From the IMG/VR virus record IMGVR_UViG_3300044825_002732, positions 1 through 46,856 of that record: a DNA stretch of 46,856 bases; one strand, 5' to 3'. Positions within the stretch are counted from its first letter, which is position 1; every line of letters begins with the position of its first letter. The notes beneath the pieces are model-generated. The model worked only from the letters and a program-made list of their open reading frames with translations, was not told the DNA's origin and did no database searches. The position numbers were made by a program, and so were the translations under genes. Positions 9,384-13,700 of this stretch are shown here, piece by piece. Source of the stretch: a virus.

Positions 9384-11890
9384 TAAAAGAAAAATGATTC
9401 AAGGTTTACAGTTTTTTCCACACTCCATCCAATCGAATCAAGGATAGACTTAAGTGGTTCCACAAAACTCTTTTCAAATTGTAATTCATAATCGATGTAT
9501 TTGTCAAGACCAAGTTCTTTAGGAAAATCTTGGATAAACGAAATTACATTTTCTTGAATTGTATTTGGTTTTTTGAGAAAGATAAATTTTACCTTTTCCC
9601 CATTATTAATGAGAGAATATTTATTAGTAAGATTATTTTGTTTTATGTAATGATTGAACAGAAGTGCTCCACGAACGTGAATAGGAGTTTTGGATGCATA
9701 AATGCTTGAAGAAGAATAATATTTTCTTACATCTGAAGCAGTTCTTGGAAAAGCAACTTGTTCTGGAGGAAGTTTTTTAAATTCTTCACGACACTTATCA
9801 ATAAAATTAATTACTTCATCTTCAGTACCATTCATCATCAATTTAAGAGCATCCTTGATCATCACGCGACAGGGAGCAGGAGTTGAAGATTTAACTGCTT
9901 CAATTCCCATCATTTTGAGTTTGGGTTCTTCATATCGAACACCTTCACTATCCCATACATTGAGAATGTAACGCTTCTTAGCAGTCCAGATTCCACGCTC
10001 AGCAATGTTCTCACGCTTCATCTGCATCTTCTGATCATATGCATTCACATAGTTCGCCAGTTCTTGGTAGCAACTCTCAATATACTTTTCAAGTTCCACC
10101 TTACAGATCTTATCAAGGAAGTTGACAACGCCTTCAGTAGTTTTCTCTCTTCCCTTGTATACAGTTTCAACCAAAGGACCCATATTAAGGTAAATAGAAT
10201 CGGTATCAGAAGCAATAACATAATCTACTCCGTCTGTTTTGAGAATTTTGTTCAGATAGGCATTCATCTTGTTCTCAATCCAGCGGATAGAAACTTGACC
10301 AGACAAGGTAATTGCCTCAGCGTTTGCTAGTTTGTAATAACGGAAATACTGATTGCCAATAGCACCATAAGCAGAGTTAAGTTGAATCTTCCTTGCCATT
10401 TGGATGTTGTTGCACCTTGCAATCTCTTTTTCCAACTCTTTTGTCTTCTTCTTTTCATATTCTTGTTTAGCAGCAAGCATTTTCTTTTTATATACGGTGC
10501 GATCCTTATAGATCTTTTCCATCAGTTCTGGCAGGAATCCACGCACATCTTTACGGAACATTGCTCCGTTTGCACAAACTGCATAATCCTTATACATCTC
10601 AAAATTAGTCTGCTGATTTAAAATTTTATCAACCGTCACATTTGGATGCCTCTCATCCAGAAGAGTTTCTGGTGAGATATTATACTGCATAATAAGGTGT
10701 GGATATAGACTATTAAGGTCAAAACTCACAACCCAATCATACTTACCAGGAATGGGTTCTTTAACATAAGCACCTGCGTACTTAGAGTCTTTATCGGAAC
10801 GTTCTTTAGGTGGAATTACAATATTCCTTTTCTTAAGGTAGTTGTAAATGATTGTATCCCACATACGAACTTGAGAAAATACATCAGCATAATTTGCCTT
10901 AGCATCATATGCCATTGTAATCGCAAGTTCAATCAATTTCATCTTGTCTTCCATTCGGTCAACAAGTTCTACGTCAATAATGTTATACTCTACAAATTTC
11001 TGCCAACCTTTAGTATAGAAATCTTTGAATGTATCAAACTCAGAGTGATCAAGTTTTTTCTGACCAAGTTCTACGCTAGCAATATAATCTAGGCGATAAG
11101 ATTCTTGCGCCTTATAAGTAAATTTCTTATAAAGATTTAAATAATCAAGTTGAGTAATTCCACCAACATCATAAGAAATGTGCTTACGTCCAGAAATATA
11201 AATCTCATCCTCGGTTACAAGACCCCAAGGAGACATACGCTTCATTAACTTCTCACCAAGAACCCTATCTAAACGGCGAACGAGATATGGAATATCATAC
11301 AATTCAATATTCCATCCAGTCACAACTTCTGGGGTATTATCCTCAACCATCCACCAGTTGATAAAATCCATCAACAAATCTCTTTCGGTTGTAAAAGATT
11401 TGTAAATCACATTCTGTTGCTTGTTCTTGAATGGACCAAGACCCCAGGTGCGAATTTGCTTTGAAGCGTAATCTTGAATTGTAATCAAGAGAACTTCTTC
11501 TGCAGCAGACTCTACATCTGGAAATCCATTCTCAGATGCAACCTCAATATCCAGTGTAGTTATCTTAACTTTATTCGTATCAAATTTAATTTCTCCTTCA
11601 GGATAAGTTTCAGAAATGTACTGGTAAATGTATGCAGTGTTACCGTATATCTTAAAATTCTCTACATTTTCATACTTTTTAATAAATTCCCTACATTCAC
11701 GAATCACTCCAGGTTGCACTGATTCGACATATTCACCATTAAGAGTTTGATATTTAGTTTTTTTATTTGAAGGGACAAAAAGAGTCGGGTAAAACTTCTC
11801 ACGAGTCATGAAATGTTTACCATTTTCATAACCACGGACCAAGAAGTGATCCCCGACCATTTGAACGTTAGTGTAAAAACGAAGTGACAT
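9383..11890 (-). CDS. gp43: DNA polymerase (gp43, family B)
   Basis: An 835-residue family B replicative polymerase with 3'-5' proofreading exonuclease. Exonuclease motifs are LDIEVASENGFPD (Exo I), VTGWNIELYDIPYL (Exo II) and YNIIDVELVD (Exo III). Polymerase motifs are DLNSLYPHLIMQ (A), KIQLNSAYGAIGN (B) and ASDTDSIYLN (C), in the usual order and with the catalytic aspartates intact. It is slightly shorter than T4 gp43 (about 898 residues). The C-terminal ENVISFIQDFP...LESFFF would end in the clamp-binding tail. No intron or inserted homing endonuclease interrupts it. Confidence 0.98.
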   Translation of the reverse strand: MSLRFYTNVQMVGDHFLVRGYENGKHFMTREKFYPTLFVPSNKKTKYQTLNGEYVESVQPGVIRECREFIKKYENVENFKIYGNTAYIYQYISETYPEGEIKFDTNKVKITTLDIEVASENGFPDVESAAEEVLLITIQDYASKQIRTWGLGPFKNKQQNVIYKSFTTERDLLMDFINWWMVEDNTPEVVTGWNIELYDIPYLVRRLDRVLGEKLMKRMSPWGLVTEDEIYISGRKHISYDVGGITQLDYLNLYKKFTYKAQESYRLDYIASVELGQKKLDHSEFDTFKDFYTKGWQKFVEYNIIDVELVDRMEDKMKLIELAITMAYDAKANYADVFSQVRMWDTIIYNYLKKRNIVIPPKERSDKDSKYAGAYVKEPIPGKYDWVVSFDLNSLYPHLIMQYNISPETLLDERHPNVTVDKILNQQTNFEMYKDYAVCANGAMFRKDVRGFLPELMEKIYKDRTVYKKKMLAAKQEYEKKKTKELEKEIARCNNIQMARKIQLNSAYGAIGNQYFRYYKLANAEAITLSGQVSIRWIENKMNAYLNKILKTDGVDYVIASDTDSIYLNMGPLVETVYKGREKTTEGVVNFLDKICKVELEKYIESCYQELANYVNAYDQKMQMKRENIAERGIWTAKKRYILNVWDSEGVRYEEPKLKMMGIEAVKSSTPAPCRVMIKDALKLMMNGTEDEVINFIDKCREEFKKLPPEQVAFPRTASDVRKYYSSSSIYASKTPIHVRGALLFNHYIKQNNLTNKYSLINNGEKVKFIFLKKPNTIQENVISFIQDFPKELGLDKYIDYELQFEKSFVEPLKSILDSIGWSVEKTVNLESFFF

Positions 11891-12144
11891 TAGGCAGTTA
11901 ATTCAAGATACTTTTTAACAATCTCAGGTTTAGGGTCAACAATAGTAAGAATACTATCAGAATGAATCATCATTTCTGTTTGATCTGTAACTTCAGGCCA
12001 AGGAGTTAAATTTCCTTCAGAATCAATTTGATATGGATTAATGAGTTTACAATCTGGTTCACCCAATTCAGAACCAACTTCAATAATTTCAGTGATAATG
12101 ACGTTATCAACTTTTAACAAAAGACACTTAACTGTTTTCTGCAT
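11890..12144 (-). CDS. Sm-like small protein, paralogue C
   Basis: An 84-residue beta-rich protein. It aligns by eye with the proteins at 12128-12439 and 28435-28845: an N-terminal CLLLKVDNVIITEI strand pair, a central INP, LTPW, and a C-terminal DSILTIVDPKPEIVKKYLEL. The layout (short strands, then a final Asp-x-hydrophobic-Thr strand) suggests an Sm/LSm or SH3-like barrel, a fold often used to bind RNA; that is inference. It overlaps the preceding paralogue by 17 bases and the gp43 ATG by one, so it should be translated with the polymerase. It is the shortest of the three and lacks part of the central loop. Confidence 0.7.
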   Translation of the reverse strand: MQKTVKCLLLKVDNVIITEIIEVGSELGEPDCKLINPYQIDSEGNLTPWPEVTDQTEMMIHSDSILTIVDPKPEIVKKYLELTA

Positions 12145-12439
12145 TTAATTTTTCCTCATACATTTCTTTAAGGGTTTCGATTGGTTCTACTATAGTTACA
12201 ATCCAATCTGGTTGCACCACAATTTGAGTATCACTAGTAAGAATAATCCAAGGAGATAGTGAAACTTCTAAATCTCCTTTCTTTTCTTCAACATCCTCAA
12301 CTAAAAGAACAGTTTTTCTAACTTCGATTTTCTGTGGACTGTTAAATAAATAACCACAAATTTTTTCATCGGAAACAAGTTCTTTTGTATCAGAAATTAC
12401 AGTTTCACCAGACTTGAGTAGTGCTAGTTTAATTGACAT
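12128..12439 (-). CDS. Sm-like small protein, paralogue B
   Basis: A 103-residue protein starting MSIKLALLKSGETVISDTKE. I chose the ATG at 12439 because GGAGGGAG lies just upstream; the longer frame would run through the promoter and terminator. Features shared with its two paralogues are an N-terminal LKSGE turn, FNSP in the middle, SLSPWIILTSDTQIVV, and IVTIVEPIETLKEMYEE at the end. This resembles an Sm/LSm-type barrel with a C-terminal helix. RNA binding is possible but unproven. It is the first gene behind the strong sigma70-type promoter at 12462-12490, heading the polymerase operon. Confidence 0.75.
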   Translation of the reverse strand: MSIKLALLKSGETVISDTKELVSDEKICGYLFNSPQKIEVRKTVLLVEDVEEKKGDLEVSLSPWIILTSDTQIVVQPDWIVTIVEPIETLKEMYEEKLNAENS

Positions 12440-12461
12440 TTTTTTAAGTCTCCCTCCAAGC

Positions 12462-12490
12462 ATTATAAAACAAAAAAATGGGGAAGTCAA
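12462..12490 (-). promoter_or_regulatory. Sigma70-type promoter heading the replication operon
   Basis: Minus-strand -35 TTGACT (12485-12490), exactly 17 bases of spacer, and a perfect -10 TATAAT (12462-12467). It lies 23 bases before the ATG of the Sm-like gene at 12439, with GGAGGGAG between. The -35 box lies inside the 3' arm of the terminator hairpin at 12472-12514. It is the best match to a host housekeeping promoter in the window. Confidence 0.8.
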
Positions 12491-12514
12491 CCTGGATTTT
12501 GCCAGGGACCCCCC
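12472..12514 (-). terminator. Rho-independent terminator overlapping a promoter
   Basis: On the minus strand GGGGGGTC pairs with GACTTCCC (8 bp with two G-U pairs) around an inner CCTGG/CCAGG stem, followed by CA and seven T residues. It ends the hsp20/52-residue gene transcript. Its 3' arm and U-tract contain the -35 box and part of the spacer of the next promoter. Confidence 0.65.
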
Positions 12515-12540
12515 GCGCCGACGATATTCAATAATATTTA

Positions 12541-12699
12541 TCATTCACGCTTTCTTTTAAAAGCACAGACTTTTTTACCAGGTGCCATTGCATATTTAAC
12601 TGTTTTACCATAACAATTTTCTGGAGTTGGAAGTGGAGGATTTCCAAAATCCCCAATCTTTTCCTGAATAATTTGCATGAACTCCTGAAAAGTTTTCAT
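12541..12699 (-). CDS. 52-residue protein with T4-type capsid-targeting N-terminus
   Basis: A short ORF starting MKTFQEFMQIIQEKIGDF and ending CAFKRKRE. The first seven residues differ from the T4 internal-protein tag (MKTYQEFIAE) only by Phe for Tyr. An I-Q-E site follows at 11-13, fitting the (L/I)-x-E preference of the T4 prohead protease. The remainder holds PPLPTPENCYGKTVKYAM and a basic tail, suiting a DNA-associated internal protein. It follows hsp20 by 16 bases and precedes the terminator at 12472-12514. Packaging into the head is inference; translation is likely but unproven. Confidence 0.65.
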   Translation of the reverse strand: MKTFQEFMQIIQEKIGDFGNPPLPTPENCYGKTVKYAMAPGKKVCAFKRKRE

Positions 12700-12715: not shown

Positions 12716-13150
12716 TTAGAGATAGTCTTTTCTAGTATGATATTCCGGAACAATTTTACCCAAATTAATTGTCAATAGTCCGTTATCAAAGGTAACTTTT
12801 CGTACTTCTGTGTCGTCAGAGAGAGTCCACGCTCTCTTGAAAGATCGTTGAGCCAATCCCTTATGGACGTAGTGGGTATCAGTTTCTCTATCCTCCTTCT
12901 GTCCTTCGACAAAAAGTTTTCCATATTCTGTATATACATGTACTTCCCCCTTCTTAAATCCAGCAAGTGCAATTTCCAAACGCGATTCTACGTTACTTAC
13001 CTGAACAAGATTATATGGTGGGTAATTAGAAGTAGTTTCATGAAGATTGAATAGACGATCAAAATATTCATCCATTCCAATACTGTTGCGGGTGATCTTT
13101 TCCAAAAGAGTTGGTAGATCAGTAGTAGTATATCTTGTAAGATTAGTCAT
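12716..13150 (-). CDS. hsp20: Small heat shock protein Hsp20
   Basis: A 144-residue alpha-crystallin-type chaperone. The core runs from about NLVQVSNVESRLEIALAGF to the C-terminal strand DNGLLTINLGKIVP, including the GLLTINL signature. Hsp20 oligomers hold unfolding proteins; T4-like cyanophages characteristically encode one, perhaps for head assembly. I chose the ATG at 13150 because GGAGAT lies 8 bases upstream. A longer in-frame ATG at 13207 would run through the leader hairpins. The leader contains a candidate RNA thermometer (13159-13205). RegA and its terminator lie upstream. Confidence 0.93.
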   Translation of the reverse strand: MTNLTRYTTTDLPTLLEKITRNSIGMDEYFDRLFNLHETTSNYPPYNLVQVSNVESRLEIALAGFKKGEVHVYTEYGKLFVEGQKEDRETDTHYVHKGLAQRSFKRAWTLSDDTEVRKVTFDNGLLTINLGKIVPEYHTRKDYL

Positions 13151-13158
13151 TATGGTAT

Positions 13159-13205
13159 CTCCTTTAAAAGCGAGTTTTTTAAGTGTCAAACCCGAAGCAT
13201 TTGAC
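13159..13205 (-). promoter_or_regulatory. hsp20 leader hairpins, candidate RNA thermometer
   Basis: Two hairpins occupy the likely 5' leader of hsp20. The first (13185-13205) is GTCAAA/TTTGAC capped by C-UUCG-G. The second (13159-13174) pairs CTC-G-CTT with AAG-GAG across a 3-base loop, with one bulged G. This buries the ribosome binding site AAGGAG in a weak 6-bp stem. Short imperfect pairing over the ribosome binding site is the classic design of small-heat-shock RNA thermometers, including one known in cyanobacteria. Confidence 0.55.
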
Positions 13206-13212
13206 ATTACTA

Positions 13213-13218
13213 ATTATA
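13213..13218 (-). promoter_or_regulatory. -10 element (TATAAT) for hsp20
   Basis: The sequence TTCTTGTATAATTAG follows directly after the RegA terminator. No good -35 is visible. The same TTCTTGTATAATTA occurs before the CobS-like gene. A start about 7 bases downstream would give a leader of roughly 55 bases beginning at the UUCG hairpin. Confidence 0.6.
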
Positions 13219-13227
13219 CAAGAACAT

Positions 13228-13254
13228 AAAAAATGCGGAGTGTTGAACTCCGCA
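13228..13254 (-). terminator. Rho-independent terminator after regA
   Basis: TGCGGAGT, a 5-base loop and ACTCCGCA form a perfect 8-bp stem, followed by six T residues on the minus strand, immediately after the regA stop. It ends the clamp/clamp-loader operon. Confidence 0.9.
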
Positions 13255-13259
13255 CCTTA

Positions 13260-13700
13260 TCATTCGGCATCCTCTACCCTTTTCTTCTTAGAACCAATAT
13301 TATATTTAGTTTCAAGAATCCAATCACCTTTGTCCTTATATGCAAGAACTTTGATTTGATTAAGTGGAGCAATATCTTGAATTTTCTTTACATCTACGAT
13401 CGTAATGAGACCCCAATCTGCAAGAAGTTGGGCAATACGATTACGACGCTGAACATCATTCACAGTTAGGTTTGCGTGTTTACCATCAAGGGCAAACAGT
13501 TCCTTAAAGTGAACGAGATAATATCTACCTTGCTTGTGAAGAATATGACAAGACTGATAGATTTTCTTTTCCTTTCTTGAAGCAACTCCGATACGGGTCA
13601 AAGTCTCACGAACCTTTAGAAAATCATCAGGTTCATTGAGAATCACTTCCACCATTTGGTCGGGCGTCCACTTCACTTCAGGTTCTTGAACGACACTCAT
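13260..13700 (-). CDS. regA: RegA translational repressor
   Basis: A 146-residue homologue of T4 RegA, which binds the ribosome binding sites of early mRNAs and represses their translation. The conserved core starts at about residue 17 (VEVILNEPDDFLKVRETLTR) and includes IYQSCHILHKQGRYYLVHFK, as in T4. It has about 15 extra N-terminal residues and a basic C-terminus (SKKKRVEDAE) compared with the 122-residue T4 protein. As in T4 it follows the clamp-loader gene gp62, here with a 4-base ATGA overlap. Likely targets are mRNAs of its own operon. Confidence 0.95.
   Translation of the reverse strand: MSVVQEPEVKWTPDQMVEVILNEPDDFLKVRETLTRIGVASRKEKKIYQSCHILHKQGRYYLVHFKELFALDGKHANLTVNDVQRRNRIAQLLADWGLITIVDVKKIQDIAPLNQIKVLAYKDKGDWILETKYNIGSKKKRVEDAE

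Follow-up and report, generated by a model that had tools for sequence, protein, structure and literature searches.

Organization of the hsp20 leader

The window analyzed here is the whole 46,856-nucleotide stretch of viral DNA in IMG/VR record IMGVR_UViG_3300044825_002732. On its minus strand the gene for the translation repressor RegA is followed by hsp20, and the short region between them holds the features collected in Table 1. Between the promoter-like motif and the hsp20 start codon (13150-13148), the minus strand reads TATAAT-TAGTAAT-GTCAAATGCTTCGGGTTTGAC-ACTTAAAAAA-CTCGCTT-TTA-AAGGAG-ATACCATA-ATG (13218-13148). The initial annotation had proposed that the SD sequence AAGGAG is paired with CTC-G-CTT in a 6-bp stem with one bulged G and a 3-nt loop. 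This hairpin (hairpin 2) is present exactly so, with CUC paired to GAG and CUU to AAG on either side of the bulge. A second, UUCG-capped hairpin proposed upstream was likewise found (hairpin 1, GUCAAAUGCUUCGGGUUUGAC), 7 nt below TATAAT; it consists of seven pairs (GUCAAAU/GUUUGAC), a bulged G, one C-G pair and the UUCG loop. Downstream of hsp20, the small-protein genes at 11890-12144 and 12128-12544 (-), with overlapping PHROGs 483 and 431, have the look of a tandem duplication.

Table 1. Features of the hsp20 locus (positions in the window).
Feature	Position	Strand	Remarks
hsp20 CDS	12716-13150	-	Encodes an IbpA-type small heat shock protein of 144 aa; PHROG 432 Hsp20, E = 1e-55; Pfam HSP20 PF00011
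SD AAGGAG	13159-13164	-	8 nt 5' of ATG; AAGGAG in 180/198 distinct CTCGCT-containing leaders of relatives
Anti-SD CUCGCUU (ROSE core UCGCU)	13168-13174	-	Bulged G at 13171; seven invariant columns in alignment A1
Hairpin 2, predicted temperature-sensing hairpin	13159-13174	-	6 bp, one bulge, 3-nt loop 13167-13165
A-rich single-stranded linker, hairpin 1 to hairpin 2	13175-13184	-	A-rich yet variable among relatives
Hairpin 1	13185-13205	-	Stable stem, conserved bulged G, UUCG cap; compensatory changes in relatives
-10-like TATAAT	13213-13218	-	By its position, the mRNA is predicted to begin at about hairpin 1
Intrinsic terminator-like hairpin, upstream regA transcript	13230-13258	-	Most freshwater relatives have a comparable hairpin with a T run
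regA (translation repressor)	13260-13700	-	PHROG 242, E = 1e-63; adjoins hsp20 in several annotated cyanophages

Of 213 distinct leaders, 177 carry a promoter-like motif, counted as TATAAT or the T4-late-like TTAAATA/TATAAATA, in the last 22 nt before hairpin 1 (random stretches: 3.5%), and the distance between motif and hairpin was mostly 3-6 nt. This spacing suggests that the hsp20 mRNA probably begins with hairpin 1.

Conservation and covariation among phage leaders

Leaders were taken from 272 hsp20 genes of IMG/VR and named phages. They covered freshwater relatives, the marine phages Syn9, S-PM2, P-SSM2, P-SSM7, P-HM2, S-SM2, S-CAM7 and others, and the pelagiphage HTVC008M. CTCGCT preceded the SD in 248/248 cyanophage leaders, with loop and spacer varying in both length and sequence. 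The pelagiphage equivalent is UUUGCU, and relatives of HTVC008M carry CUUUGCUU opposite AAGGAGG with the bulged G retained. The base 5' of CUC was associated with the base 3' of GGAG, T being matched by A in 15/17 leaders vs. 72/179 for other bases (p = 1.6e-4, with no correction for relatedness). Lack of conservation in relatives had been named beforehand as a finding that would overturn the thermometer reading; of the T4-like cyanophage hsp20 leaders examined, essentially all have the element.

A descriptor search detected hairpin 1 in 206 of 209 distinct leaders; by design the descriptor misses the one-pair upper stem of the window, and a handful of the 206 were mis-parsed. Pair 2 of the lower stem was AU in 119 leaders, UA in 75 and GC in 6, and pair 3 was GC in 139, UA in 38 and AU in 24. 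The loops switched between UUCG (89) and GNRA types (GAAA 43, GUAA 34), and the G between the lower and upper stems was bulged throughout. Alignment A3 contained 26 double-change cells vs. 10.1 in shuffles. For both hairpins together, alignment A6 contained 102 such cells vs. 28.8 in shuffles (0/500), with 97.1% of cells paired; A6 is a model-fitted alignment biased towards its own model, and the shuffles ignore relatedness. Hairpin 2 alone was almost invariant (98.1% of cells paired over 87 sequences), and its covariation in these 87 sequences was not above that of shuffles, partly because the SD is constrained. The compensatory changes that the initial annotation proposed to look for are abundant in hairpin 1, but none beyond shuffles were seen in the SD hairpin. 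Hairpin 2 is a predicted structure for which sequence conservation and the identity of its ROSE core argue. Across relatives, the putative leader element is far beyond chance.

Some leaders depart from this pattern. A deeper pelagiphage subgroup (L192-L199) carries the variant UGUCU, with AACUGUCU over AAGGAGGUU and a mismatch that replaces the bulged-G ROSE core; these leaders are possibly a variant thermometer. At L052:1443-1503 the CTCGCTT/SD hairpin is kept and hairpin 1 is lost by an upstream deletion, a natural hairpin-1 deletion. Cyanophage-like hsp20 genes with the leader or a variant of it also occurred in genomes labelled Actinomycetota, Thermoplasmata, Prochlorococcus and Gammaproteobacteria (L289, L290, L291 and L293), which are probably misbinned or co-sequenced phage DNA. 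With the Hsp20 of Pseudomonas phage 30-2 as query, no relatives were found in IMG/VR.

Specificity of the element

A covariance model, R1, was built from 45 other cyanophage leaders with the window left out. Searched against the window it returned the hsp20 leader at 31.9 bits (E = 1.4e-12), the next match scoring only 9.6 bits, and in whole phage records nothing but hsp20 leaders matched at better than E = 0.01. IMG/VR was also scanned for the pattern ACTCGCTT-N1-6-AAGGAG irrespective of the genes nearby, which yielded at least 80 loci; among the matches listed, 60 precede an Hsp20 gene, 57 of those with hairpin 1.

The Rfam model ROSE_3 (RF02523) aligned from end to end with positions 13206-13145, scoring 27.2 bits with E = 5.5e-4 for a search of 201 nt. 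When 20 complete phage records were searched with ROSE_3, nine of them had one match each at E≤1, always at the hsp20 leader. The 43-bit gathering cut-off of ROSE_3 was reached neither by the window nor by the best phage scores (30.6-31 bits). The window had no match to ROSE_2 (RF01832) or ROSE (RF00435) at gathering or E≤10, and in the whole window Rfam at gathering thresholds found only a tRNA.

R1 also matched two-hairpin elements before short open reading frames at L417:1653-1606 (-) with 18.8 bits and at L458:1468-1515 (+) with 19.8 bits. The encoded proteins have 71 and 63 aa, respectively, and their family is unassigned; ROSE-like leaders may control other genes too in viral contigs. 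At L430:4324-4307 (-) and L465:2107-2124 (+), the ACTCGCTT..AAGGAG core stands before a conserved 84-aa protein, with no clear hairpin 1. This protein is phasin-like by eye only, and neither Pfam nor PHROG gave support.

Comparison with known thermometers

The core of ROSE elements is U(U/C)GCU with a bulged G opposite the SD, and in tested elements the bulged G is required for thermosensing (PMC3669281; PMC11342760). In the window, CUCGCUU lies over AAGGAG with G 13171 bulged. ROSE leaders have 2-4 hairpins in the 5' UTR with the SD in the 3'-most one; here there are two, if the mRNA begins where the promoter spacing places it. A small heat shock gene (ibpA/hsp20) lies downstream, and the R1 model is essentially unique to hsp20 leaders. 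The leader thus appears to have every ROSE feature from the literature that can be read from a sequence, and by Rfam cut-offs it is not an annotated member. A fourU thermometer was ruled out, the SD partner being CUCGCUU and not four consecutive U.

Among leaders studied by experiment, that of Pseudomonas ibpA has the most similar architecture: a ROSE element of two hairpins, of which the second (II) melts between 25 and 42°C and the first (I) remains closed (Krajewski 2013, PMC3669281). It has in common with the phage leader the two hairpins with a stable one at the 5' side, a short 5' UTR, an IbpA-type gene, and a 3' hairpin in which the SD is paired with U(U/C)GCU around a bulged G. Unlike the Pseudomonas element, the phage leader is AT-rich, belongs to a lytic cyanophage and is known here from sequence alone; its hairpin 1 has a bulged G and a UUCG or GNRA tetraloop, and its promoter is of the -10 or late-like kind, not sigma32.

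In E. coli K-12, R1 matched the ibpB leader (E = 3.6e-5 and 8e-4), which reads UGCUC-G-CC-GUCA-GG-GAGCA, then ACUCGCUUcUUAgAAGGAG. Two features of the phage leader recur in it: ACUCGCUU...AAGGAG, and a hairpin with a bulged G and a tetraloop between GCC and GG. In the ibpA-ibpB intergenic region (L369:2473-2407, -) both phage-type hairpins were seen in the ibpB leader, which, unlike that of ibpA, was matched by none of the ROSE models of Rfam at the gathering cut-off. The ibpA leader is Rfam ROSE_2 (RF01832, 100 bits), contains UCUCGCUGAUUUCAGGAG and resembles the phage in UCUCGCU...CAGGAG; it is a validated ROSE element (Waldminghaus 2009, as cited in PMC3669281). Both E. coli leaders are longer with extra hairpins, whereas the phage sequence falls below every Rfam ROSE cut-off. 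ROSE_3 shares with the phages a hairpin 1 of the form AUGCC...GGGU with a bulged G and an ACUCGCU core, in a match that is full length, but phages score 27-31 bits against its gathering score of 43.

Marine ibpA leaders, among them leaders of SAR11 (Pelagibacteraceae), were matched by R1 as well, with E from 5.6e-13 to 1e-6. These have two hairpins, YGCC..GG with a bulged G, UUGCU over AAGGAGG and an IbpA-type gene, and differ from the phages in being cellular, with UUGCU for UCGCU and G-U in place of C-G. Two types of ROSE-like leader were seen at SAR11 ibpA (L299-L368), one with the YGCC..GG hairpin and ACUUGCUU..AAGGAGG, and a second that carries AAUCGCUUAAGGAGGAUU; among the loci scanned, Rfam detected neither at E≤0.5.

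The initial annotation had drawn a parallel with small-heat-shock mRNAs of cyanobacteria. The cyanobacterial hsp17 thermometer (PMC4477652) is also a small thermometer on such an mRNA, but it is a single hairpin with a 1x3 internal loop, with the start codon in stem I, and lacks the ROSE core. The phage leader has two hairpins and its AUG is unpaired in the leader fold; it was not assigned to the hsp17 type, and its resemblance is instead to the proteobacterial ibpA/ibpB ROSE elements.

That no such element was known in a phage, as had been stated, is too broad. Phage RNA thermometers are known from lambda cIII, SPbeta blyA (fourU) and a sigma70 gene of a gut phage (Caudoviricetes, fourU) (PMC10586365, PMC11182007). 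Like the cyanophage element these are temperature-dependent 5' UTR structures in phage genomes, but they are not ROSE-type, do not control chaperone genes and come each from single phages. The narrower statement held: in the literature searched, which left subscription journals mostly outside, we found neither a ROSE-type phage thermometer nor one from a cyanophage, and no account of the control of cyanophage hsp20, and the papers found on cyanophage small heat shock proteins do not mention a thermometer. Judged by sequence, the cyanophage leaders are a new, widespread viral branch of the ROSE-type element, with thermosensing as its presumed function.

Origin of gene and leader

Phage Hsp20 is IbpA-type, with the YPPYN motif in common with E. 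coli IbpA. A tree of 40 proteins placed the Hsp20s of cyanophages in one clade (97/87) and those of pelagiphages with SAR11 and other marine ibpA (93/93), which suggests that phages acquired hsp20 more than once. R1 was also used to screen bacterial genomes with strict filters, and the best 10 loci per class were examined. Matches at E≤1e-4 occurred in 17/242 cyanobacterial genomes. We take them as chance because none of the best 10 loci had a small heat shock gene downstream; a host-cyanobacterial origin of the leader was rejected on this account. In 240 alphaproteobacteria, the four best matches adjoin Hsp20 genes (best 10 loci examined). The simplest reading of these comparisons is that gene and leader would have moved jointly from proteobacteria. 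If true, a chaperone gene and its RNA sensor have moved together between bacteria and phages.

Folding predictions and chance expectation

The initial annotation had asked for the leader to be folded over a range of temperatures. With ViennaRNA, the probability of hairpin 2 at 20°C was about 0.92 for the leader plus ATG, 0.18-0.25 when 15-36 nt of coding sequence were included and 0.64 with 60 nt. With 15-36 nt a competing fold is predicted below about 30°C, in which the SD pairs with codons 3-5. Over 195 relatives, the mean probability with coding sequence at 20°C was about 0.5. The unpaired probability of the SD bases GGAG rose from 0.07 to 0.24 across 10-45°C, and the nearest-neighbour model put the cost of opening the SD at 5.8 kcal/mol for 15°C, 3.7 for 30°C and 2.5 for 42°C, a predicted fall at least as steep as that for E. 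coli ibpA. Opening of the SD on warming is thus predicted, but it is gradual, depends on sequence context and competes with another fold in the cold. Such melting is weak evidence because any weak helix would show it.

When only Watson-Crick pairs were counted, 0.33% of dinucleotide-shuffled leaders could form an anti-SD hairpin of 6 bp with no more than one bulge; when G-U pairs were allowed, 18% could. The SD-opening energy was ordinary, being as high in 196/500 shuffles and for 3/19 of the window's other genes; it fails to single out hsp20, and energy-only tests were therefore not counted as support. The single-sequence evidence for the anti-SD fold is only mildly beyond chance.

Interpretation of the leader

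We consider it likely that the hsp20 leader is a short two-hairpin ROSE-like thermometer that represses translation at low temperature. The thermometer reading of the initial annotation is supported by the conservation and the ROSE core, to which are added the sequence itself, the covariation of hairpin 1, the invariance of the anti-SD, the parallels at bacterial ibpA and ibpB and the linkage to an IbpA-type hsp20; from these we infer transcript start, in vivo folding, temperature response and biological use. Transcription would start just below the -10 motif and place hairpin 1, with its bulged G and UUCG or GNRA cap, at the mRNA 5' end, where it would act as a stable leader cap and folding aid. 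At low temperature CUCGCUU would pair with the SD around the bulged G and block 30S binding. On warming, the weak bulged hairpin 2 would melt while hairpin 1 remains closed, and Hsp20 would be translated, supplying chaperone in warmed or stressed infected cells. Oceanic phages meet small temperature swings, and this counts against a thermometer.

Cyanobacterial T4-like phages are among the most abundant viruses of the sea, and hsp20 is one of their core genes (PMC3037559). If the thermometer reading is true, this would be, as far as the literature searched shows, the first viral ROSE thermometer, and probably more widespread than any other thermometer of phages; through it, infection would be tied directly to temperature or to protein-folding stress.

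A different signal for the same leader would be aggregation. Hsp20 may bind its own leader, perhaps at hairpin 1 and its bulged G, and repress its translation until unfolded or assembling virion proteins titrate it away; temperature would then be secondary, and this mode can coexist with a thermometer. The IbpA proteins of E. coli, Cedecea and Vibrio bind the ROSE-containing 5' UTR and repress their own translation, which needs R93 and Y34, and titration by aggregates has been shown for E. coli (PMC10474464). These positions are kept in the Hsp20 of the window (R102, Y43) and in most phage Hsp20s, and the shape of hairpin 1, including the bulged G, is kept from cyanophages to SAR11 and E. coli, which fits recognition by a protein. 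Against this, R93 by itself is no RNA-binding signature, and the text of PMC10474464 consulted here does not define the site bound by IbpA within its own UTR. By analogy with these proteins, autorepression could tie Hsp20 output in infection to unfolded virion proteins, though we hold it to be somewhat unlikely. Slightly more doubtful is a dual sensor acquired with the ibpA-type gene, in which a ROSE thermometer would be combined with an Hsp20 autorepression site released by titration during infection. Were it true, a core gene of T4-like cyanophages and pelagiphages would be under such control generally.

A temperature-independent attenuator, in which the leader keeps hsp20 low or late and the 5' hairpin 1 stabilizes the mRNA, would agree with the gradual predicted melting, with structured leaders of similar opening energy on other genes of the window and with T4-late-like promoters in many relatives. 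It sits poorly with the keeping of the exact ROSE core and of a bulged G that is needed for thermosensing elsewhere (PMC3669281, PMC11342760). The restriction of the element to a heat-shock gene also speaks against it, and we regard an attenuator as improbable.

Binding of the leader by RegA is suggested by the position of regA, which adjoins hsp20 in the window and several relatives, and in T4 RegA acts at ribosome binding sites. The element is confined to hsp20, however, and is not common to other phage genes; it also precedes SAR11 ibpA and E. coli ibpB, and we know of no RegA in either bacterium. A RegA operator is thus highly improbable and largely refuted, because bacteria without RegA have the same element.

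That the leader encodes an Hsp20 N-terminus from an in-frame ATG in or beside hairpin 1, as the window and S-SRM01 would allow, has next to no chance of being right: counted from CTCGCT, the start codon lies at 0, 2 and 1 mod 3 in 96, 71 and 31 distinct leaders, so that conservation of the leader is not coding, variants with GGACGCC, GUACGCC and GGUUGCC lack the ATG, and the changes in the leader are compensatory in RNA. In GenBank, the hsp20 CDS of S-SRM01 (L082:550) and P-HM2 (L088:523) starts upstream of the conserved SD and ATG, in S-SRM01 at the ATG within hairpin 1; both start annotations are probably wrong.
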